Positions 1 to 27,747 of a stretch of DNA of 30,626 bases are shown one piece after another. The translations under genes were made by a program, and so were the position numbers. The stretch is from Glutinoglossum americanum (lineage: Eukaryota > Ascomycota > Geoglossomycetes > Geoglossales > Geoglossaceae). The notes under the pieces were generated by a model. The model was not told where the DNA came from. It made no database searches and worked only from the letters and a program-made list of their open reading frames with translations. The stretch lies in NCBI GenBank assembly GCA_020080175.1, contig JAGHQL010000241.1, positions 1-30,626 of the forward strand, read 5' to 3'. The stretch's first letter is position 1; every line of letters starts with the position of its first letter.

Positions 1-1230
1 TTGCCGCAGGTGGGATTGAGGTTGCAAACACCAGAACCATCGGCAGTATACCCAGTGTCACATACGCAAGAAATAGTGCATCCAGTACCGCCGTCGCAGT
101 CCTCGCCGGCATCTAATTGGCCATTGCCGCAGGTGGGATTGAGGTTGCAAACACCAGAACCATCGGCAGTATACCCAGTGTCACATACGCAAGAAATAGT
201 GCATCCAGTACCGCCGTCGCAGTCCTCGCCGGCATCTAGTTGGCCGTTGCCGCAAAGGGGATTGAGGTTGCAAACACCAGAACCGTCGGCAGTATACCCA
301 GTGTCACATGTGCAAGAAATGGTGCATCCTGTACCGCCGTCGCAGTCCTCGCCGGCATCTAATTGGCCATTGCCGCAGGTAGGATTGAGGTTGCAAACAC
401 CAGAACCGTCCGCAGTATACCCAGTATCGCATGTGCAGGAAATAGTGCATCCAGTACCGCCGTCGCAGTCTTCGCCGGCATCTAGTTGACCATTGCCGCA
501 GGTGGGATTGAGATTGCAAACACCAGAACCATCGGCGGTATACCCAGTGTCACATACGCAAGAAATAGTGCATCCAGTACCGCCGTCGCAGTCTTCGCCG
601 GCATCTAGTTGGCCATTGCCGCAGGTAGGATTGAGATTGCAAACACCAGAACCATCGGCAGTATACCCAGTGTCACATGTGCAAGAAATGGTGCATCCAG
701 TACCGCCGTCGCAGTCTTCGCCGGCATCTAGTTGGCCATTGCCGCAGGTAGGATTGAGATTGCAAACACCAGAACCATCGGCAGTATACCCAGTGTCACA
801 TGTGCAAGAAATGGTGCATCCAGTACCGCCGTCGCAGTCTTCGCCGGCATCTAATTGGCCGTTGCCGCAGGTGGGATTGAGATTGCAAACACCAGAACCG
901 TCGGCAGTATACCCAGTATCACATGTGCAAGAAATGGTACACCCAGTACCGCCGTCGCAGTCCTCGCCGGCATCTAATTGGCCATTGCCACAGGTGGGAT
1001 TGAGATTGCAAACACCAGAACCATCGGCAGTATACCCAGTGTCACATGTGCAAGAAATGGTGCATCCAGTACCGCCGTCGCAGTCCTCGCCGGCATCTAG
1101 TTGGCCGTTGCCGCAGGTAGGATTGAGATTGCAAACACCAGAACCATCGGCAGTATACCCAGTATCACATGTGCAAGAAATGGTACACCCAGTACCGCCG
1201 TCGCAGTCCTCGCCGGCATCCAGTTGGCCA
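1..1230 (-). repeat. Ten tandem 123-bp coding repeats (41 residues each)
   Basis: Units start at 1, 124, 247, 370, 493, 616, 739, 862, 985 and 1108 on the plus strand, exactly 123 bp apart. They differ at only a few positions, mostly silent or conservative on the minus strand, for example GTA/ACA for V/T between the fourth and fifth cysteines. The exact multiple of three and the lack of stops on the minus strand support coding on that strand. High identity suggests recent expansion or gene conversion. Confidence 0.95.
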
Positions 1231-1982
1231 TTACCGCAGTTGAGTACGCAGAGACCACCACTAGCGGTATACCCGGTGTCGCATTGGCAGGAAGATGTAC
1301 ATCCAGGGGTGCTGTCGCAGTCTTCGCCGGCATCTAGTTGGCCATTACCGCAGTTGAGTACGCAGAGACCACCACTAGCGGTATACCCGGTGTCGCATTG
1401 GCAGGAAGATGTACATCCAGGGGTGCTGTCGCAGTCTTCGCCGGCATCTAGTTGGCCATTACCGCAGTTGAGTACGCAGAGACCACCACTAGCGGTATAC
1501 CCGGTGTCGCATCTGCAGGAAGATGTACATCCAGTGGTGCCGTCGCACTCTTCTCCGGGATTGACTTGGTTATTGCCACATCTATTGCTGGTTGTCACAC
1601 AGCCACCTGACCCATCAGGTGTTGTACTTTGCAGGCATAAGCAAGCTGCGGTACAATCAGTACCACCATCGCACTCTTCTCCGGTATCCAGTTGGCCATT
1701 GCCACATGTAGCAGGGATGATTGCGCAGCCTACGTCACCATCAGGACCTGTTCCAGGTCCGCATTTGCAGTTTCCGTCACATCCGAAACCGCCATCGCAG
1801 TCTTCGCCGGTATCCACGACGCCATTGCCGCATTTATTAGCTCGATCAGCTATGTTGTTTGGTGAACCAGTTGTACCGCGAGCAATTATATCCCTGATGT
1901 TGAACTTCAGGGTGCCGGCCGCACTGCATTGGATTTGCAAAGCGACCAAGGTCGCGAGCGCGGCGGTGGTGAGGAACCGCAT
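1..1982 (-). CDS. Secreted cysteine-rich tandem-repeat protein, 5' part (runs off window start); probable frameshift near the signal peptide
   Basis: Read on the minus strand, one frame stays open from about 2017 to base 1 (about 670 codons) and contains no ATG. Around 1836 it begins a series of CGNG-type repeats, each with six cysteines spaced C-x10-C-x5-C-x3-C-x-C-x10/11-C and the signature C-G-N-G-x5-G-E-(D/E)-C-D. This resembles the DUF4215/Myxococcus-type cysteine-rich repeat and EGF-like extracellular modules. The only sensible start is the ATG at 1982, whose frame gives a good signal peptide (MRFLTTAALATLVALQ). That frame hits a stop near residue 44, while the repeat frame is +1 to it. 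No GT-AG intron of normal size fixes this, so I infer a one-base indel or sequence error between about 1982 and 1910. The product is probably a surface or cell-wall protein; its function is unknown. The 3' end lies outside the window. Confidence 0.72.
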   Translation of the reverse strand, partial: MRFLTTAALATLVALQIQCSAAGTLKFNIRDIIARGTTGSPNNIADRANKCGNGVVDTGEDCDGGFGCDGNCKCGPGTGPDGDVGCAIIPATCGNGQLDTGEECDGGTDCTAACLCLQSTTPDGSGGCVTTSNRCGNNQVNPGEECDGTTGCTSSCRCDTGYTASGGLCVLNCGNGQLDAGEDCDSTPGCTSSCQCDTGYTASGGLCVLNCGNGQLDAGEDCDSTPGCTSSCQCDTGYTASGGLCVLNCGNGQLDAGEDCDGGTGCTISCTCDTGYTADGSGVCNLNPTCGNGQLDAGEDCDGGTGCTISCTCDTGYTADGSGVCNLNPTCGNGQLDAGEDCDGGTGCTISCTCDTGYTADGSGVCNLNPTCGNGQLDAGEDCDGGTGCTISCTCDTGYTADGSGVCNLNPTCGNGQLDAGEDCDGGTGCTISCTCDTGYTADGSGVCNLNPTCGNGQLDAGEDCDGGTGCTISCVCDTGYTADGSGVCNLNPTCGNGQLDAGEDCDGGTGCTISCTCDTGYTADGSGVCNLNPTCGNGQLDAGEDCDGGTGCTISCTCDTGYTADGSGVCNLNPLCGNGQLDAGEDCDGGTGCTISCVCDTGYTADGSGVCNLNPTCGNGQLDAGEDCDGGTGCTISCVCDTGYTADGSGVCNLNPTCG
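1231..1572 (-). repeat. Three tandem 114-bp coding repeats (38 residues each)
   Basis: Units start at 1231, 1345 and 1459. The first two are almost identical and the third differs at a few bases. They keep the six-cysteine pattern of the 123-bp units but are three residues shorter after the fifth cysteine. Two further, diverged 126-bp units (1573-1698 and 1699-1824) and a partial one lie nearer the N-terminus, so divergence rises toward the start of the protein and the array seems to have grown away from it. Confidence 0.93.
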
Positions 1983-2552
1983 CCTCCTTTGCTGGGGGGG
2001 GGGGTATTAAGTCGTAGTCAGGTCCGGTGGTAGATTATCAAACGAGTGGAATCCTTTTTACCCGGCCAAAGGAAACTGAAAGGTCCAAAACAAACGAGTG
2101 TATGTCCCAAAAACGAATGAACAAGCCTTTTGGCCAAAGATGCGTTGACATAGAGGATTTCCTCTGAGCCGGAGTGCCCATTCTTAACAATCCCAACATT
2201 CCCCCCTTTCTACCCGATTAGAATATCTCATATTCAACCTTCATAACTATGTCCGCGTTTGTAGTCATGCATTCCACAGCCACAAACCTCCACCTCGATC
2301 CTTATCCGGTTAGTCCCACTCGGCCCTGAAGTTTCTTCACCTTTCTTGAACAGGTTTCGCTAAACCATAGGGCAAGATCCACCTGCACCCTGCTAGCGCT
2401 ACATATACTTTCCTTTCAATAGAACTTATCGCGGAATTGTCCTAGATTCATCTTGGCAGGGGCCAGCGTCTCTCCTCCCGTGTGCTCACCTCTTGGCGCG
2501 CACATCTCGCAAAGGAGGCCTCGCTCGTCGAGGCACCCGACGAGCGAGCAAC

Positions 2553-16007: not shown

Positions 16008-16427
16008 ATGTGACGCTGCTTTAGTTAGCGGGGCGTGCGCGTAAGCCGGGTGGCAAGCAAACCCCCTCCCCTCAATTCGTATGCCGTTGTTTGCTGGGTC
16101 GCTGATTGACCCTTACTGCCGCCACGCTTATCACCTCGATTTTGGCCTATCCGTGATTGCTGTCGAGAAAGAGCTGAAGAACGATGAAGTAGGGGTTGTG
16201 CTTGCGCCGGGTAAGCACAGTGCACGCCCATTTAAAGCAGCGCGGGTTGCCCCACCTGCCAAACCAACTCGACTCATCCAGGTGAAAACCACACCGACGC
16301 TCCCTATCACGTTGCTGTGGTAAGAGAAGTCCCATATCATAGAAGATGCATAGCCCCTGCAGTAGCAATTGTTAACTTCTACACTTTCTACAAGCAGCGG
16401 AGCCTGGAGCGAGGAGCTCTTGTCACT

Positions 16428-18783
16428 ATGGCGGACCCAATTTCAATCGCAGGCCTTGCCGTCGTAGCCGCACAGGTTATTTCGAGTATATATGATTACG
16501 GTATGAATGTGAAGGATGCTCGAAACGACATACGGAGCTTGAGTGAGGAGCTTTTCGCCTTGAAAGGGCTTTTGGAACATATCGGAGCACAACAGAACAA
16601 CTCTGTAACCAGTTCAGGCCTCCTGACCAACCCCCCCCTAGCACGATATGATCCAATAGAGTTTTCCAATATGCTTCAATCGACGGAGGGCTTCTTAAAA
16701 TCATTGTTGATAAGCTTGGAAGAGCCGAAAACCAGGTTTAAAAGGACGATGCAGAGCTTAAAGTGGCCCTTTGAAAAGCGTGACATGGATATACACCTTG
16801 CGCGTTTGGGACGAGTTAAGGCGTGGTTTATATTGGCGACGATGACCGATAGTATCGCGGTTACACGAGATATATATTCGGAAGTGCTAGAATTGACACG
16901 GAGCTTGAATGCCGACCGGGAAATCAGAGAAAGGGAAAAGGCCGACTCTGCCACTCAGGAGCTGCTCGCGTGGCTAGCTCCTGTGGGCCCGGGAGAGGCT
17001 CACGCGCGTGCGTTGCAGGTACGACAGCCGGGAACTGGATCTTGGTTCATCGATGGGCCCTTCCGCGAGTGGCTAAACGCAGAGCCTGGCCACTACCCGG
17101 TGTTGTGGCTCAGTGGCAGCTCAGGTTCTGGGAAGACTGTCCTTCTTTCTTACGCAGTGGAAACAGCTCAGAATGCTTTCCCAGAAGGTTCCGGTACGGG
17201 TATTGGATACTATTACTGCAGTTTCGATGACTCGGCTTCCCAACTACCGGTGAACATCCTTGGCTCCCTTGCTGCGCAACTATCAGTAACCAACCCAATG
17301 CTACTAGAGGAATTTCGCCCCATTTTCGAGAGAGAACAGAAGTCAAAACTACCAAAAACCCTTGGTCTCACAGAGCTAGAGGATTCGATCCTCAAATGTT
17401 CCGCCACCTTGCCAATGGTGCTGTTCTTCATTGATGCATTAAATGAGAGTGATCACTACTCTTTGATTGCCGCATCTCTACTGAGGCTCACCAGCCAATC
17501 CAAAAACCTTCGAATTCTGGTTACAAGCACTTTTGGTCCCCCCAAGACCGAATTTATATGGCCGCCTATCTATAGGATCATCGACATGCCAGCTGCAAAG
17601 ATAGCGAGAGATATTCAAACTTGTGTCGAGTCCAGACTGAAGCAGGATCCGAATCTTCGCGGCTTGAGCGACAAGTTAAAAGACGATGTTCGAAGTGCTC
17701 TTGCCGTCAAATCAGGCGGAATGTAGGCCCCCTTGAATACCCAGCCTGGAGCCTTCGCTCGCTGACAGTTTAAGGTTTCGTTGGGCCCAACTTTCGCTGC
17801 TCCATCTAAGTGCACAACGCACCGGAAGGGATGTCAGAAATGCTTTGGAGGCGATGCCGCAAGATCTAAACAAAACCTATATGGGCATATTGTGCCGAAT
17901 ACCGGAGGTGGATCGGAAGCTAGCCAGGGAAGCTTTGATCTGGCTCTGTTTCGCTGAGAGGCCACTCCATATCGCTGAGCTGAGCGAAGCGGTTGTCCTT
18001 CAGGAATCGGATACTACACTCGACAGTGACAGCAGACTACATGCACCTCAAATTGTCCTTGAAATTTGCCAGGGCCTAGCTCAGTGCCAGTATTCCAATC
18101 TCCGAGTGACTCTTGCTCATTTCTCTATAAAGGCTTTTCTGGTATCTGAGTGGATTAAATCCTCTAGCGCTAACTTCTTCAGCATCGATGCAGCTGAGGC
18201 GAAAAAAGCTCTCATGAGAAAATGCTTGACTTATTTGTGCTTCCGGGACTTTGGAAATGGTTATAGGAAGACCTCCTCCGACGCCGCTGCCTGTTCCAGA
18301 TCCTTTCCTCTTTTCTGGTATGCCGCACATAACTGGGCAATCTATGCCAATTCATGTGAACTGGATGCCGAAGACCATCGCCTTATAGCGAAGTTTTTGG
18401 CTACGAAAGAGCTTCCTCGAGGAGGGAACTTTAGCTCATGGGTCCAATGTCTCGTTCGGGATATGTCGTTCGAGCGGATCGAAGCCACAGAGCCTCTATA
18501 CTACGCAGCTTCATTCGGCCTCCTCTCAGCAGTCCGAGTTATCTTGACGACCCAACCTGGTGTTGATGTAGATGCGCGCGGTGGACGTTTTAATTCGACC
18601 CCACTATTCATTGCTATTTGGCGTGGGCATCTCCAGGTCGTCGAACTCCTTCTCGAACACGGCGCAGACCCGGGGCTCATAGATCCGAGTACCGGCTTTA
18701 CACCACTGAGCTATGCTTATATGAAACGCCTTTCCAAGACTGCGGAACTTCTGAAGAGGCATTTACCTCGCAAGTGCCCATAA
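16428..18783 (+). CDS. NACHT-ankyrin NLR (STAND) protein, two exons
   Basis: Exons 16428-17722 and 17775-18783 join across a 52-bp intron (GTAGGC...TTTAAG, branch CTGAC) to give 767 residues. MADPISIAGLAVVAAQV is the classic start of the fungal NLR N-terminal helical domain, so I chose the ATG at 16428 over upstream in-frame codons. NACHT follows: Walker A GSSGSGKT at 230-237 (K236) and Walker B VLFFIDALNES around D336. The usual SGGMFRWAQLSLLHL helix spans the splice site, and the winged-helix part (IWLCFAERPLHIAELSEAV) comes next. From about residue 671 there are about three ankyrin repeats (STPLFIAIWRGHLQVVELLL is the clearest). Such proteins act as cytosolic nucleotide-dependent switches in fungal non-self recognition and programmed cell death. 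The ankyrin array is short for this class, so the ligand-sensing end may be reduced. All NTPase motifs look intact. Confidence 0.93.
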
Positions 18784-19568: not shown

Positions 19569-19791
19569 CAAAAAGTTTACTGAAATACCACGACTTTTTA
19601 CCAACCTCAACGCCAATTATTAGCCCCTCCAAGGCTTCCCGCACGGCTCTAAAGCCATTGATTGTATCCATACCATGTTCGAGGCTGTCACCTTTTGTGA
19701 TGAGATGAGAGAGTAAGTAAGCAATTTTACTCCCGAGGGGCGACCGTGGATGGGTAGGAAATTAAACCGTGGTATTTCAGTAAACTTTTTG
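19569..19791. mobile_element. Small noncoding element with 24-bp terminal inverted repeats (MITE-like)
   Basis: 19569-19592 and 19768-19791 are perfect inverted repeats (core GTTTACTGAAATACCACG). The 223-bp element has no coding capacity. Its right end coincides with the point where ankyrin coding sequence stops on the minus strand, so it sits at the break of the neighbouring pseudogene. No obvious target-site duplication was seen. Similar ATACCAC words lie at 19510-19545 and 15620-15660. Confidence 0.6.
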
Positions 19792-21140
19792 TGGTTTTTC
19801 CCGCCGGATCTCTGGACGAAGGGCTCGCCCCTCGCTCGAGGAGCATCACGACAAGATCGACGGAGCCGCTCTGCACGGCAGCATGGAATGGCGTACTGTC
19901 CTGTTTGTCCTTAGCAAGTGTATCTGCCTGAGCTTCAGGGGAGGCTTTGGCAGTATCGTATGATCCATTCGCGGCGGCGAGATGTAGGGAGTATGGCCTT
20001 TTTCGGCTCGAGCCAAGACGTCAGCTACCTGTCCCAGCAAGCATTTAACAATAACCATCCAGTATCCTGCCGAAGCCATATGAAGAGGGGTGTTATTCTG
20101 ACCATCACGACAGCTGGCAGTTGCACCGAGAGAGAGCAGAGGGAATATAATCTCCTCGTGCCCAAATCTTGCAGCTAGATGCAGGGCTGTTTTGTCCCCT
20201 TTTGTTTCCGAAATTGGCATCGACATTGTGTTCTATTAAGAGATGAACAACCTTACAGATCCGATCTGTGTGGCAAGATGAAGGGGTCTATTGCCATCTA
20301 ATTTGTCCAGTATGTCTACAAAATTCCCAGGATGGTCGGCGGGAGAGTCTTCAGATTCGTGGGACAGTAGAAGCTGCTCCACAATTTCTCGTCTCCGATC
20401 TGAGCAGCCTGACGAAGGGCTGTTTTACCCTTAAATCTCTTTAGCTGGTCAGCGCTGGCTTTGAGAAATATCTTGACGATTTTCGAGTCACGAGAGCGAA
20501 CCGCAGGGTTCAAAGCCCCACTGTTCTCATCAGACCAGGAGCGCCAGTTCCACTGTTTGGAACTGAGAGGCGTTGTTTCCTTAAGGTGTCCGCCAAGCAG
20601 CTCGAACGTCGGCCGATGCCTTCCATTAATTGCGGACATTAGCAAGGGATGTGTAATGGAGCTTTCACGCGTTTCAATAACCACTTCAGAAGGGTGATGT
20701 TGTCTCTTGTAATGGCTAGATAATGCAGTTCTGGGTCCGGCGACAAATTTGTCTTGGCTTAAGATAAAATCGATTGATTCCGAGGCACTGTTCGCCGCTG
20801 AGTAATGCAAAGGAGTACACTTTGAGGTGTGTCTATCGTTAATATCTGTTTCCAGCTCTTCGAGTATTTCCGAGAGGTTTAGCAAGTTTAGCCTGGCAAG
20901 GGTATGGATCGGGCTCCGATCGGTGGGGAATTGGCCCCTGCTAGTGGATTGGCGAAAGGGAGATTTTCAACCTCCCAGCGATTGCTTCCCAAGAAGTCTG
21001 CTGTGAGACCAAACAACAATCTGACACCGTCGCCGCGTAAGGCCATTCGCACATGTTCAAACCAGAATTCTGACGCGTGACGCAGGAAAGGGGTAGTAGA
21101 GAAGTCCAAAGGAGAAACCTGTCTTTCCGGCCCATCGTCT
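19792..21140 (-). pseudogene. Ankyrin-repeat NLR relic (C-terminal half)
   Basis: Minus-strand frames carry NLR and ankyrin sequence in the right order. Near 21060-21110, PFLRHASEFWFEHVRMA resembles the helix that precedes ankyrin arrays in fungal NLRs. From 20885 down come ankyrin-like units (CTPLHYSAA, GKTALRQAAQIGDE, GNRPLHLATQIGS, KTALHLAARFGHEE, NTPLHMASA, STPFHAAVQSGSVD). The coding phase changes at least four times (near 20960, 20380, 20250 and 20000) without plausible introns at each change, so I call it a pseudogene of a host gene. No NACHT domain is present upstream, and the 3' end stops at the inverted-repeat element. Base composition is ordinary, so the decay is by indels rather than heavy RIP. 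It lies tail-to-tail with the intact NACHT-ankyrin gene. Confidence 0.8.
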
Positions 21141-23376
21141 GTCGGTAAGGCTCTGCTCGATATAAGAGCTGTTTTTCAGTTGCATCTTGGTTTATCCTAT
21201 TAGTATGAGTATTACCATACTACGTTGTTTCGTGGCCAGGTGCTCGAGTGCTTTCGCTCCCCTTCCGCGTGTCCCTGCTATTTTTTTGTCCATTTTATGC
21301 CTTTCTATGCCCAGGCCGTTAGTGTAACACAACCCGTAACCGCACCACGGCACACTGCTGTCCACCTGAAATGGTATTAGCGGTAAAACATCGTTTAAAT
21401 ACTGGGAACCTACGGTCCATTTCCGGTGTCTTGAAGTATGTCTATGCTATCCTGGTGCCCACTCCGAAGCAAATATCCGAGATTAGCCAACTGTAGTAGC
21501 TCATCGACGCATTAGACGGGCGTGCGCAACTGCTTCCGGTAGATAAGATGGAGCGACTGAGGAATCGCTTGAGAACGCACAAGGGATCGTGACATGCTGC
21601 GGCGGAGGACTGGTGAAGAAGCGGCCGACTTAGTCAGAGAGGAAAAAAAGTCGAAGCGGACGGATCGCATACAAATGTTCGCCTCGGTGCTTGGTTTGGT
21701 TATCAACATGATCCATATTTTCTTGCAAGGATTCGGCGTTATATGATATGAACGTCATCACTTCCATAGTCTTTAACATTCCTAGTTGGATACCCATTTC
21801 GCCCATATTATAAACATTCAAAACACCCTCGAGTATATCAAACAACCGTAATATTCTCGTAATTCATATGGATTACCTGCGACATCTTCAAAGCTTCTGC
21901 TCGCATTGCCGGTGAGAAATTCCCATAGTATAAAGACGTTTGATATAGTTGATCAAAAGTACCTTTTCCTACTCGGTAGAAGTTCGTGATTTTGTTGCCC
22001 ATTCTGCTCTAGGTATGCGTTCCGCTTTGCGATGATTAATGATAGATCGTGGGGTACCATGTGCGGTATGGATTAGAGCCAGGAGGCCGGGATCGAGCTC
22101 GCGATGGGTTATCAGGGCAAGGCTCGGCCGATTAATGTAATCTATGATAATCGGTGGAGTCGCTTCTTTGGGTCCATTGAGGTGGGGTAGGACAGTGTTT
22201 CTAGCTCTTAGGACCCCCCCGAGTTCACCCCCATATTCGGTAAAACGTCTAGTTCGAGGTCGGAATCCATAAACATCTGGTTTCGGGCATCCTGGGTGTT
22301 TTTGTCTTTTCATTCATCCCCAACGTCTAGCTGTATTCCCAAAGCCCTCTTCCTTCGTCATCTTGTATTCCGCGTTGTATGCGCAGAACCCCAAATCAAC
22401 CACCGGGAAGTATATTTTGGCCATCCGCATATATGACTTCCCTTTTTCTCGGTCGATAGCGACTCTTACTGTGATTTGTCGTCGATGGACCACACCGGTA
22501 GCACTGTATTCTGAAGATGAACTCCGAAAGCCCGCGACGGGCTCGTCCGAGCGGTTTCGCAAGATCGAGGCATTGCTTGTAGAGGCTTACTACTTGACCT
22601 GAATCATCAGGGTCGGGCGCATCAGTCTCAATCCTGATTTTCTCAAGCTTCTTGTAAGGCAAACTCACCGAACCCTCGCGACAAGGCCTCATTCAGGTCC
22701 CGAGACGCCACTCGGCGCCCGCATTACTCAGGACAACAACCCGTGATCTGTACCGATACTGAAGGATTACCTGGAACCGAAGGGTTTCATTCCTGTAGAC
22801 CTGCTCGAAGTCAAAGACTTGGTAATGCAAATTGGGGGTTTCCGTGGTTACCGAGCCCAACTAATTAGTCATCATATGCACGCCGCGGTGAAATGATCCC
22901 GTCTTGCGCCATTCTGGAAAGAGCAAAGGAAAGCGACAGCGGTCTCACACTCCACGCTAACAGCTAACATCACTACCGTCGGTACCGTTGCCGGGCTTGG
23001 TGCGGAGAATACAGCCCGCTTCGTCCTTGCTATTGGGCCAACGAATCATTTCGGAAATGAGCACTTGAGGCGGGCTCTAAGAGCCGATGCTGGTATTGGC
23101 CAACTCAGGGGCGCTCATGCAGTGCAGGCGGAGCTGAACTGCCTTCTGCCGCCATTGGTTGAATGAGTTGCCAAGCTTTGTGCTTGTATGTCTGGGCGCT
23201 TTTCTTTTGGGGGGCTCTGTTGTCCATAAAAAAGCACTTTATGCATTTTGAGCCGACGAGCTGTTTTGACGCACAGCGTTCTATTTAAGCGGACGGAGCT
23301 CCTCTGATCCCCGGTGCCCCATCTTGGCCTCGCGGTTCCGGTTCTTCGCCAGTGACCCTCCTCGTTCCTTGGGGAA
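21141..23376. other. 2.2-kb spacer with unresolved coding-like patches
   Basis: Several segments read like protein but do not form a clean gene: minus 21630-21845 (LGMLKTMEVMTFISYNAE) with a further patch upstream at about 21890-22010; minus 22314-22692 in two overlapping frames (for example VAIDREKGKSYMRMAKIYF) with a possible GTGAGT donor near 22670; and plus about 22760-23165 (GFIPVDLLEVKDLVMQIGG, then VGTVAGLGAENTARFVLAIG), interrupted by one stop near 22893. I recognise none of these families. They may be exons of fast-evolving genes or relics. Confidence 0.4.
23281..23289 (+). promoter_or_regulatory. TATA-like box of CFEM-like gene
   Basis: CTATTTAAG lies about 90 bases upstream of the ATG at 23377, a reasonable distance for a fungal core promoter. 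Confidence 0.35.
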
Positions 23377-24085
23377 ATGCATACCTTTGGGAGATCGGGC
23401 GCTCTATGCTTTCTCTTATCTCTCGTTCGCCCAGCGCTCGGCGACACCCAGAGCATTATACTCGAGTCTGCGTATAGCAGTTTAGACCTGTGTGCACAGA
23501 GCTGTTATCGCCCGCAGGTGCCGGGGTCGACGGCCACCATCGGCGACCTTGTAGGGTCCGCAATGGGCTGTACTGTTTCCTACTACAGCCACGCCCAAAA
23601 CTCTTGCTTTTGCCACCCTACTCTTGAGCCTGCCGCAACGAGTTATCTCTCCGGATGCGTTAAAAAGTCCTGTTCGGGTAACAGTGGCAACATCGATTCT
23701 GCTATTAGCCTTTACGTGAACTATTGTATAAGCAATGGGGGGAACTTAACATTCCCGGCTAGCGTCTCAGCAACGACGACTTCTGCTCAGGGTTAGTTCT
23801 GCCTGCGCTGAGAACTGCGCTGAGAACTGAAGGTGCATTCACTAACGTGGATATTACCACCAAATAGTGACAACCAGTCCCACAACCGCATCCTCGACGG
23901 CACACTCTTCGCCAGCTCCCTCCTCTTCCCCCACAGCTAACGGCTCCGGGATATCCGCTGGTAAAATTGCCGGAGCAGTTGTCGGAGGAGTCATTGCGCT
24001 GGGCCTAATAATTGCTATCTTATGGTATATATTTAAAGGCGATGGTGACGGAGGCCTGGAGGAATTTGCTCAGCGTGGTCCTTAG
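23377..24085 (+). CDS. CFEM-like single-pass membrane protein (two exons)
   Basis: Exons 23377-23791 and 23868-24085 join across a 76-bp intron (GTTAGT...AAATAG, branch CACTAACG) to give 210 residues. Residues 1-22 form a signal peptide (hydrophobic core LCFLLSLV, likely cleavage after ALG). The mature N-terminal part has eight cysteines in a CFEM-like order: C-x3-C, a single C, C-F-C, then C-x4-C and a last C. A Ser/Thr/Pro-rich, probably O-glycosylated stalk follows, then one glycine-rich membrane segment at about 172-194 (IAGAVVGGVIALGLIIAILW) and a 16-residue acidic tail. The protein should sit in the plasma membrane with the cysteine domain outside, where CFEM proteins bind haem, act as sensors or serve in host interaction. 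It lacks a GPI-type end. The CFEM call is from cysteine spacing only. Confidence 0.82.
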
Positions 24086-24508: not shown

Positions 24509-27500
24509 TTACCGCCATTTCGATGCGTACTCATACCACCCTTTCTTTTCATAGCAGTTTGCGATGCTCGCCCTCGTCCTGAGTGTTGCTGGATCCTGTT
24601 TGCCGAGGGTATTCTTCCTCTCTGTATAGATGTCGCCATACCACTTGAGTGCCTTGTCAAACTTTCCTTGCTTTTCGTAGATGCCGGCAATTTCTTCAGC
24701 AGAGTTCAAGATATTCGGGCTTTTCCAGTTGCCATGGGGGCCTATCATTTGCTTTAATTGCTTTTTGCACGACTTTAGCTCGCTTGATAAGTCCCTGCCT
24801 TTCTCCGTACTAGCATTACGACCAAATGGGTTTTCGCCCCGCCGCGAGCCCACTGCCGCTGGGTTGCATGCACCGAGGCTGCTACCTGGACGGTTCGTAT
24901 CCAGTAAAGGTTGAGCGGAAGTACGACTGCTTAGATTAGGATCCGATCGCCAAGCCACTGTCCCTTGGTAGGGCACGTTGAGACTACTGCTTCTGGTTGA
25001 AGCCTCATCGACGGATTTCTATTGCAAATAAGCAACTGTATGCCATGCGTGGGTAGTAGTTTCCGGACCTCTTCAGCATCTGGGTAGTGTTGGTATACAC
25101 CTAGAGAGCTTTTGGTTATCCTGAGCGATTCCAATTGGTACTCGTGTGGTGTATTACTTCCGTTAAAGTAATCCGTACTATATAAGAAAGCCTTAACGAG
25201 TTTTCTGCCTAGCCTATCCTGAGTAGGGCTTACCGGTGACCGATAGTATGTCCTGCACTGCCGAAGCCCACAGCAGCTCCTTTTAGCTGGCTAGAGGAGC
25301 TTCCTCCTTGTTCCAGAGCTTTAGGCGCTATGTACCTCGACATCTGCGCAGGCTGAGGATCCCAGCCATTTCGAATTCCGGCGGGGGGAGGTCTTCTATC
25401 GATCCGCCGGCTGGACTCCGCCTGGCTCATTTGCCCTGCTTCAGTTATACCGCGGCTACTCGATGAGATAACTTCATTTACCCATCTCCGAAGCTGCCCA
25501 GCGACGGCAATAAAGCCAGGGTCGTCTCGGTTATCAAACTTTGTCATACCATGGTGGTTATCCGGTATCCCTATGTAGTTATACCCGGCTAGGATAGCCG
25601 AATCACGAGAGACGACCTGAGTTAATGTGAGCATATAGAGATTAGGCAAGGTATACCGCACAGCTTACCATACCGACGCCTGGTAAAGGCAACTCCTCGT
25701 AGAAGCAGGTGATCTTGATTGGCGGAAGCCCGTCCTCATTCCGTGATCTGATGAGAGTATGGAAATTATTTGGAATCCGCGAAAGAACCTCAGAGTCCTT
25801 CCTTAGGACCGAGATGACGTGAGGATTCGTGTGCCTTATAAGTTCGATGGATTTAGCCAGTATCTCGGCCCAGTCCGCGAGCGCGGCGCCACGGTGTGGA
25901 GTTCCGAGAAATATAATTCCATAGGTGAAATTAAGGATGTCCCGTAGATGGCGTTCCGGTGGTTGTTGCGCCGTTACTAAAGCCTGCAGCATACATAAGC
26001 AGGACATCTACAGAACGCCGGACACAAAAACACCGCAGAACTTACATCCTCACAGACGAGACCCCCTAAGCCATGGCAGACAAAGATAATAGGACGTTTG
26101 TTCTATAAGAGTAAGCGTAATACGTCAATACGGCCTCGCAAGATTTACAGTTCCATCGTCCTCCCTATATATAGCGATGGCATTCAGCAGGTTCATCGCA
26201 TGATTCCCAATCCTATTCTCAGACACCATGTCTTGCCAGTCTACGACATATGCATCGTATCCAAAGGTAAGAACGCGGGAGTTAGGGACTTTGAAAGGTA
26301 ATAATGTCTGAGGCCACGGAGCAGTGGCATCCCTCGCTGTCCACGTCTCCTCACGATCTCCAGTTAGACCATGGACGAATATGATACTAGTGTTTAACGT
26401 TATATGGTTAGAAACTGGGTCTGGGAATTTCTAGAGTACTGAAGGAAAGCTGACCCGAGCCAGCAAAGTAAAGCCTACATACTCGACCGCACTATCCTCA
26501 GCCTCGTAGAGTATCTTAATACCGGAGGGGAAAGTCTTCCTTGACAGTGTGGTTATGTGGCCGCTCGCGGAAGTAGAGCCCCTGTCGCTAGCGGGGTTCC
26601 TAGACTCTCGGGGGGACCACCGCCGTATGGCCGTGGACTTTGCGCTGGGCGCGCCACCGATGGCAGGCCGTGTGGGCATTGAGGGGAGCGTTCGATGGTA
26701 TATGCTCTCACCGCCGGTTTGATGCCAGGCCCCGCTAAGATAGTGTGATTCCGTAGTAGATTCGAAATTGAAACTACTATCCGTAGCCTCTTGGCCATCG
26801 ATAACTTGACTCGCTATACGTGTCGTCGCTACTTCGGCGACGGGTATGACTGACAGGACCTCCTTGGCACATGCGGCGGCTGCTGCTGCTGCATATGGCT
26901 GCCATTTCTTATTCTTGTGCGAGTCGGCATAATCACAAATACCTCGGATGACAAGGCACGGGAAGTCGTTCATCAAGCCCGCCGCCTCCATCTCGAAGCA
27001 GAGTACGCCTCCATAATCCGAACTAAGCCTGTCCCTAGTAACCCCATCCTTGATGACTTGATTACCAGAGGCAATTGTCCCATAGTGTACGACAACCTCC
27101 TCTTCACGCGGACTCCGCTTCACCAGCCGGTCCCTGTCGCACGAGTTGCACGTCGGCCCTCCAACATGACTATAGTCCGCCTCGAAGGTGATGTCGTCGC
27201 CTGCATTACTGCGCGTAAATTTCGGCAGACGGTTAAATACGGACATGTATGTCGAGAGACTGCTCCTGGACCTGTTGTAATTGGCTTGTAACTGGGTAAG
27301 CGCGTTCAGCAGGGTTGTTGGCGGTGCGTTGAGGAAACTCGTCCGCTCGAATCCGCCTGAGGTGGTCTTCCCCATATCATATTGTATCACCCCTCCATGG
27401 CCCTTGGACGGTTGACTGATTACCACATCCCCGAGCCGCACGTCGGACCCGCTTGGCACTCCGCCTCCTATCCCTACCATTAGGCCGAATCGAATCGCTG

Positions 27501-27747
27501 TGAATGTCGACTTCATCTGAATAGCTACCGTAGCGGCAGAGTTAGTCCCTATCCGGCCTGCAGGTAGGCAAGCAATAACGACATTGTGGCCAGCGGTACA
27601 ACCAAGGCTGTACAGGTTGGTGTCGGCCACGTCTCGAGGGGCTTGGTGCTCTTCGTCCAGCATCTCCTGCGCGGCAGCCAGCTCGATCGGGAGGGCACAC
27701 ACCCATCCTATAGTGTAGTCTTCGCGACGAAGGCGGCGATTACCCAT
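24509..27747 (-). CDS. Nucleoside phosphorylase - SesB hydrolase - TPR protein lacking a nucleotide-binding domain (about seven exons)
   Basis: Exons well supported by family match and phase: 27747-26479, 26430-26149, 26102-26046, 25983-25669 and 25616-25272. Their introns are 48, 46, 62 and 52 bp, all phase 0. Tentative: 25218-25069 and 25018-24509 (introns 53 and 50 bp with weak donors). Total about 975 residues. Residues 9-300 are a PNP_UDP_1 domain (YTIGWVCALPIELAAAQ, VGIGGGVPSG, then CFEMEAAGLMNDFPCLVIRG). After a linker, residues 439-620 are the SesB-type alpha/beta-hydrolase of fungal NLRs (IIFVHGLTGDREETW, FLGTPHRGAALADWAE, ITCFYEELPLPGVG). At residue 528 the nucleophile motif reads HGLGG rather than HSLGG. 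The C-terminus has about one and a half kinesin-light-chain-type TPRs (YEKQGKFDKALKWYGDIY) ending abruptly. NLRs of this type normally carry NB-ARC between SesB and TPR; none is visible here. It may be a decoy, a signalling remnant or a decaying gene. Confidence 0.8.

Follow-up and report, generated by a model that had tools for sequence, protein, structure and literature searches.

A PNP_UDP_1 domain joined to a SesB-like hydrolase domain, with no nucleotide-binding switch detected, in the fungus Glutinoglossum americanum

Background

Shuffling of effector, switch and repeat domains is a known feature of fungal NLRs. Among their N-terminal effectors, PNP_UDP domains are frequent, according to the available text of PMC4986451. 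Bacterial relatives of PNP domains are ATP-cleaving immune enzymes, as presented in the accessible sections of PMC10197012 and PMC11249213, the latter a review that attributes ATP cleavage to the PNP of Detocs. PNP effectors can also stand outside the NLR chain, where they bear amyloid motifs that are matched by NLRs (PMC9815663, available portion).

The window analyzed here is the entire contig C159 (30,626 nucleotides, or 30.6 kb) of Glutinoglossum americanum, whose genome comprises 25.8 Mb in 317 contigs; all paralogue comparisons are drawn from this one genome. Its minus strand carries a gene, called here the PNP-SesB gene, that resembles several described systems in part. The PNP domain is like that of fungal PNP-NACHT and PNP-NB-ARC NLRs, with a SesB domain instead of their NOD. 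Intron positions and the SesB module are like those of SesB-NACHT-ANK NLRs; unlike them, the PNP-SesB gene has a PNP domain in front, glycine as the residue in the nucleophile position, no NACHT and no ankyrin repeats. The stand-alone PNP_UDP PUASM effectors, as described in the available text of Wojciechowski et al. 2022 (PMC9815663), also have a PNP domain without a NOD, and their motif is C-terminal to PNP. In contrast to these effectors, the PNP-SesB gene has a loose motif resemblance only, no partner that we found, and an added SesB domain. In comparison with bacterial PNP effectors of the Detocs and CBASS type, the PADLOC PN-superfamily profile matches the PNP-SesB gene, whereas the gene context differs.

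We found no description of a PNP-SesB tandem in literature search listings or in the accessible parts of PMC4986451, PMC9815663, PMC12258605, PMC12881547, PMC10197012 and PMC3689799. Because a survey of Sordariales NLRs has a "mixed" category for several canonical domains (PMC12258605, available text) and double-domain N-termini are tabulated in the supplement of PMC9815663, we do not claim that such a tandem is absent from print.

Results and discussion

Gene structure

The PNP-SesB gene begins with a minus-strand open frame of 438 codons (27747-26431) that encodes a whole PNP_UDP_1 domain and then the beginning of a SesB-like alpha/beta hydrolase domain. Its exons, with identities to the SesB-NACHT-ANK paralogues C24 and C143 given in that order, are as follows.

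26483..27747, minus strand: exon 1, PNP_UDP_1 (aa 12-298), linker 1 (~aa 315-402) and the SesB-like start (KTFPSGIKILYEAEDSAV)
26149..26386, minus strand: exon 2, SesB-like hydrolase (IIFVHGLTGDREETWTA...), 70 and 74% identity
26046..26102, minus strand: exon 3, nucleophile elbow (VCHGLGGLVCED), Gly in the Ser position at aa 512
25669..25983, minus strand: exon 4, SesB-like hydrolase, 64 and 58% identity
25272..25616, minus strand: exon 5, last part of the SesB-like domain, then the beginning of linker 2, open until a stop at 25230
25099..25218, minus strand: putative exon 6, linker, with weak splice sites and the best codon score of six frames
24509..25018, minus strand: putative exon 7, linker and truncated TPR, with TPR_12 at 32.1 bits in this frame

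Because the PNP domain and the SesB start (residues 1-13 of the SesB query) share the 438-codon frame, the tandem is independent of splicing. From base composition, the chance that codons 301-421 would be open is ~1.3%. The continuity of this frame, with the SesB start inside it, argues against an artifact of the gene model, in which the fusion would be only apparent and would come from two genes, one for PNP and one for SesB, or from a join made during assembly. Such an artifact would fit the shortness of the contig (30.6 kb) and the codon score of linker 1, which, as in the linkers of exons 5 and 7, does not prefer the assigned frame among the six; we consider the artifact very improbable.

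Introns 1-4 are 96, 46, 62 and 52 nt long. With these removed, the SesB-like domain is collinear with its paralogues, and exons 1-5 are open across 740 codons. When the sequences were read by eye, C24 and C143 proved to have introns 1-4 in matching positions. Intron 3 was missed by a donor-plus-branch-site scan, yet it is backed by the paralogues. The original prediction placed all introns in phase 0, so that domains could be gained or lost without breaking the frame. Introns 2-4 are in phase 0. However, intron 1 (26482-26387), which has a CTAAC branch site 25 nt before its end, is in phase 2, and by eye it has the same phase and place in C24 and C143. Thus, the proposed ease of shuffling fails at the SesB boundary.

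The PNP_UDP_1 domain

The PNP_UDP_1 domain (PF01048; aa 12-298) scores 46.8 bits against a Pfam cut-off of 25.1. It is 44-66% identical to the domains of five genes of the same genome, with the catalytic residues retained, and its closest paralogues are C123 and C283 (66%). Residues E22, E252, M253, E254 and D272 are invariant in six of six aligned sequences, and the profile that holds them aligns to MTA/SAH nucleosidases (1zos). We take E22, E252-M253-E254 and D272 to be active-site residues of the MTA/SAH-nucleosidase type. As judged from these alignments, the PNP part has the residues of an active nucleosidase. It is also matched by the PADLOC profile "Effector, PN-superfamily" (E 1.6e-17, 61.2 bits), which is presumably linked to CBASS.

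The SesB-like domain

The SesB-like domain spans ~aa 403-670 and is 47% identical over 266 aa to C275, an intronless SesB-NACHT paralogue on whose contiguous sequence the SesB fold was checked. Pfam alone gives no SesB call (DUF676, 14.2 bits with a cut-off of 20.3; Abhydrolase_6, 15.2 bits with a cut-off of 26.3), and in the paralogue comparison the SesB-like homology covers the whole domain. Exon 5 is 53 and 60% identical to C24 and C143, respectively, and the SesB module has 63-65% amino-acid identity to the two over 249 codons.

The elbow of this domain is HGLGG (aa 511-515), in which Gly512 replaces the serine nucleophile. A profile built from the paralogues puts the position of aa 512 on the elbow serine of the lipase BlEst2 (E 0.0022). 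Because the nucleophile is glycine, the SesB part is not expected to act as a serine hydrolase, and the domain should be a dead hydrolase. The earlier description of the gene as carrying two effectors was therefore an overstatement: it suits the PNP domain, which keeps its catalytic residues, but not the SesB domain with its glycine.

The elbow was read at 19 places in the genome, and the residue is serine in 16, glycine in two (the PNP-SesB gene and C56) and asparagine in one. At L017 1438-2619 (the C56:49003 region), a SesB-like frame with the elbow HGLGG is followed by a P-loop, as read by eye. The elbow of C291 is HNLGG. Loss of the nucleophile may be recurrent in the SesB family, given the HGLGG of C56 and the HNLGG of C291.

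Paralogues and divergence

Exon-level matches in the genome number at least 20 for PNP, one of which is the PNP-SesB gene, and at least 91 for SesB, four of which belong to it. Among the matches listed, PNP lies within 5 kb of SesB only at the PNP-SesB locus. PNP-NACHT is found as separate genes on C283, C306 and C268, and C123 has no NOD within 1.4 kb downstream of its PNP. In C195, PNP is followed by an NB-ARC-like NTPase (23.2 bits, cut-off 23.5), with a TPR stretch further on. SesB is joined to NACHT in C275 and to NACHT and ankyrin repeats in C24 and C143; in C56 it is followed by a P-loop (by eye) and by a DUF7779 match below the cut-off. An NB-ARC label for C195 and C56 was rejected: the former is just below the Pfam cut-off, the latter has only the sub-cut-off DUF7779 match, and the PF00931 matches include neither of them.

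Nonsynonymous divergence (dN, NG86) was calculated with paralogue exons joined around the first three introns only. In SesB, dN is 0.240 between the window and C143, 0.264 between the window and C24, and 0.239 between C24 and C143. In PNP, the values are 0.249 (window-C123), 0.235 (window-C283) and 0.287 (C123-C283). Thus, the window branch is no faster than the paralogues in either domain. Because dS is either saturated or undefined for each of the pairs, the dN comparison reflects a long history, with which recent decay is compatible. It says only that the PNP and SesB domains appear to have been constrained for most of that history, and the date of the fusion is outside its reach.

Absence of a nucleotide-binding switch

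Pfam (E<=1) detected no NB-ARC, NACHT or NPHP3_N, either in the spliced protein or in any of five exon frames. Genome searches with PF00931 and PF05729 produced no match inside the PNP-SesB gene, and PF24883 produced none there among the matches listed. No minus-strand frame of the window contains a Walker A pattern. A hidden NB-ARC or NACHT domain was rejected on the basis of these three families together with the Pfam and P-loop scans. Of the features of a fungal NLR (STAND receptor), the N-terminal effector domain is present (PNP_UDP_1, SesB-like) and no central NB-ARC or NACHT with a P-loop was found. The original prediction of tandem effector-type domains without a nucleotide-binding switch is upheld. 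PF05729 alone misses the NLR that neighbors the gene, whereas PF24883 detects it.

16236..18783, plus strand: neighboring NLR, NACHT (NPHP3_N) and ankyrin repeats, with an intron near 17730 placed by eye

A switch could have been lost if a PNP-SesB-NOD-TPR NLR had recently had its NB-ARC or NACHT deleted. Such an ancestor would account for a TPR at the gene end, and NB-ARC/TPR is the most frequent pairing of NB-ARC NLRs in Sordariales, according to the accessible text of PMC12258605. However, the ~690 bp from SesB to TPR hold no NOD trace, and the nearest relatives of the SesB module are NACHT-type genes. We consider this deletion quite improbable.

The 3' end of the gene

The TPR exon is reached only by way of two further introns (53 and 80 nt), neither of which was listed by the donor-plus-branch-site scan. 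Intron 5 has the donor GTGGGC and is 58% GC, in comparison with 41-48% in introns 1-4. The codon score ranks the assigned frame first of six for exon 6 and likewise for the TPR. The TPR consists of one repeat and part of a second, inside which it ends; TPR_12, whose cut-off is 30.1 bits, scores 29.3 bits in the spliced protein and 32.1 bits for the exon frame alone. Exon 7 is weakly matched by TPR stretches on C195, C7, C49, C266 and C286 (E 7e-5 to 1e-3). A search of the genome for the origin of linker 2 gave no match beyond the linker itself and TPRs, and at E<=1 Pfam matches none of the linker frames.

Alternatively, the gene may stop at 25230, short of the TPR exon. Thus, in the proposed order of PNP_UDP_1, SesB and TPR, the first two domains stand, whereas the TPR end depends on two weak introns. 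From the sequence, we regard PNP-SesB as firm and PNP-SesB-TPR as possible.

Origin of the fusion and possible function

Residues 374-421, which include part of linker 1, can be aligned to the N-terminal end of the SesB protein of C143 (E 0.009), such that Ile374 (ATA) faces the start Met of that protein. Taken by itself, the portion upstream of KTFPSG is not clearly better than shuffled sequence (shuffle fraction 0.057 for C143 and 0.40 for C24). This match is no more than suggestive of a trace left by a PNP gene that read into a SesB gene lacking its original start. Structure prediction of linker 1 had very low confidence, and we assign it no fold.

Our preferred reading, which we hold tentatively, is that the gene is a chimera of two fungal NLR-type N-termini that has lost the switch and combines a PNP effector with a dead SesB scaffold or bait. 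A PNP module of the PNP-NACHT class would now read into a SesB module of the SesB-NACHT-ANK class, and the nucleotide-binding switch and most repeats would be absent from the product. Presuming that the chimera is expressed, its switch-less PNP effector would cleave a purine nucleoside or nucleotide, and the dead SesB domain might act as a scaffold, docking site or bait. Gating, if there is any, would be supplied by a partner or by assembly. A regulator paired with a full NLR, a decoy and a deletion product had all been proposed earlier. Chimera formation with loss of the switch is the best supported of such accounts because the SesB introns are as in SesB-NACHT-ANK genes, the linker holds a possible SesB N-terminal tail and the TPR is short; a partner role is possible only. 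A PNP domain without a gate, if active, should be toxic. We identified no gate for this PNP domain, which counts against a switch-less active effector.

The main rival is that the gene is debris of NLR turnover, a chance fusion produced by birth-and-death that is non-functional now or has always been so. The genome is rich in NLRs (156 NPHP3_N, 73 NACHT and 19 NB-ARC matches in 25.8 Mb, with overlap between families), and debris of this kind would fit the loss of the SesB nucleophile, a TPR that stops inside its second repeat and the weakness of introns 5 and 6. It would also fit an ankyrin remnant found on the same strand, 3.5 kb downstream.

19760..20966, minus strand: ankyrin-repeat remnant in more than one frame, between the neighboring NLR and the PNP-SesB gene

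However, exons 1-5 are open across their 740 codons, introns 1-4 are common to the paralogues, and the protein has changed at no greater rate than those paralogues have. We regard debris as somewhat unlikely.

A third reading gives the dead SesB domain a more active part. As a sensor or bait, it would directly control the fused PNP nucleosidase and so replace the NLR switch in a functional immune protein. The loss of the nucleophile in C56 (Gly) and C291 (Asn) would fit repeated conversion of SesB domains to non-catalytic modules. We consider such direct control unlikely.

If the chimera interpretation is correct, then switch-less proteins are a further product of the recycling of NLR parts, and the PNP-SesB gene offers a natural test of a non-catalytic role for SesB domains. 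If the gene is debris, it is a record of how fusions arise in NLR turnover.

Genomic neighborhood

The neighboring NLR scores 106.1 bits for NPHP3_N, 77.3 bits for Ank_2 and, at its N-terminus, 16.4 bits for PigL_N (cut-off 27.2). Its NPHP3_N match (17031-17528, plus strand) is the sole one of the NB-ARC, NACHT and NPHP3_N searches on the contig among the matches listed. The NLR and the PNP-SesB gene are tail to tail on opposite strands, and 5.7 kb separates the former from the end of the latter. From the genome density, an NPHP3_N match within 6 kb is expected for ~7% of genes, and the neighbor is for this reason not strong evidence of pairing.

The PNP-SesB gene might nevertheless form a two-gene system with this NLR, in which it would be the effector or the adaptor, like NOD-less PNP effectors that pair through amyloid motifs. 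The separation is below the cluster distance of 40 kb used for Sordariales in the available text of PMC12258605. In addition, a stretch after PNP (~aa 335-350) fits six of seven positions of a relaxed PUASM pattern (FxGxGxQxxGxGxF, after the pattern in the accessible part of PMC9815663), with residue classes that were picked after the sequence had been seen (shuffle fraction 0.012). On the other hand, the neighboring NLR has an N-terminal domain-like region of its own, and no matching motif was seen in it by eye. At E<=10, a 30-residue query containing the PUASM-like stretch matches nothing else in the genome, a weak test with so short a query. We give such a two-gene system only a small chance.

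The ankyrin-repeat remnant is probably a decayed NLR or ankyrin gene. The idea that it is a lost tail of the PNP-SesB gene is not supported: in comparison with C24 and C143, its similarity is merely at the level of ankyrin repeats in general. Its 216-aa frame has no second copy in the genome, and queries with NACHT parts gave no match between 21000 and 24500.

Also between the NLR and the PNP-SesB gene, shortly beyond the end of the latter, is a small CFEM-like frame (23356-23796, plus strand; 18.5 bits, cut-off 22). It is followed, up to 24085 on the same strand, by a frame in which a serine-rich stretch and a transmembrane segment were recognized by eye. At the other end of the window (3-2006, minus strand), a long series of near-identical cysteine-rich repeats (CGNGQLDAGEDCDGGTGCTISCTCDTGYTADGSGVCNLNPT) lies in a frame that is open to the contig end.
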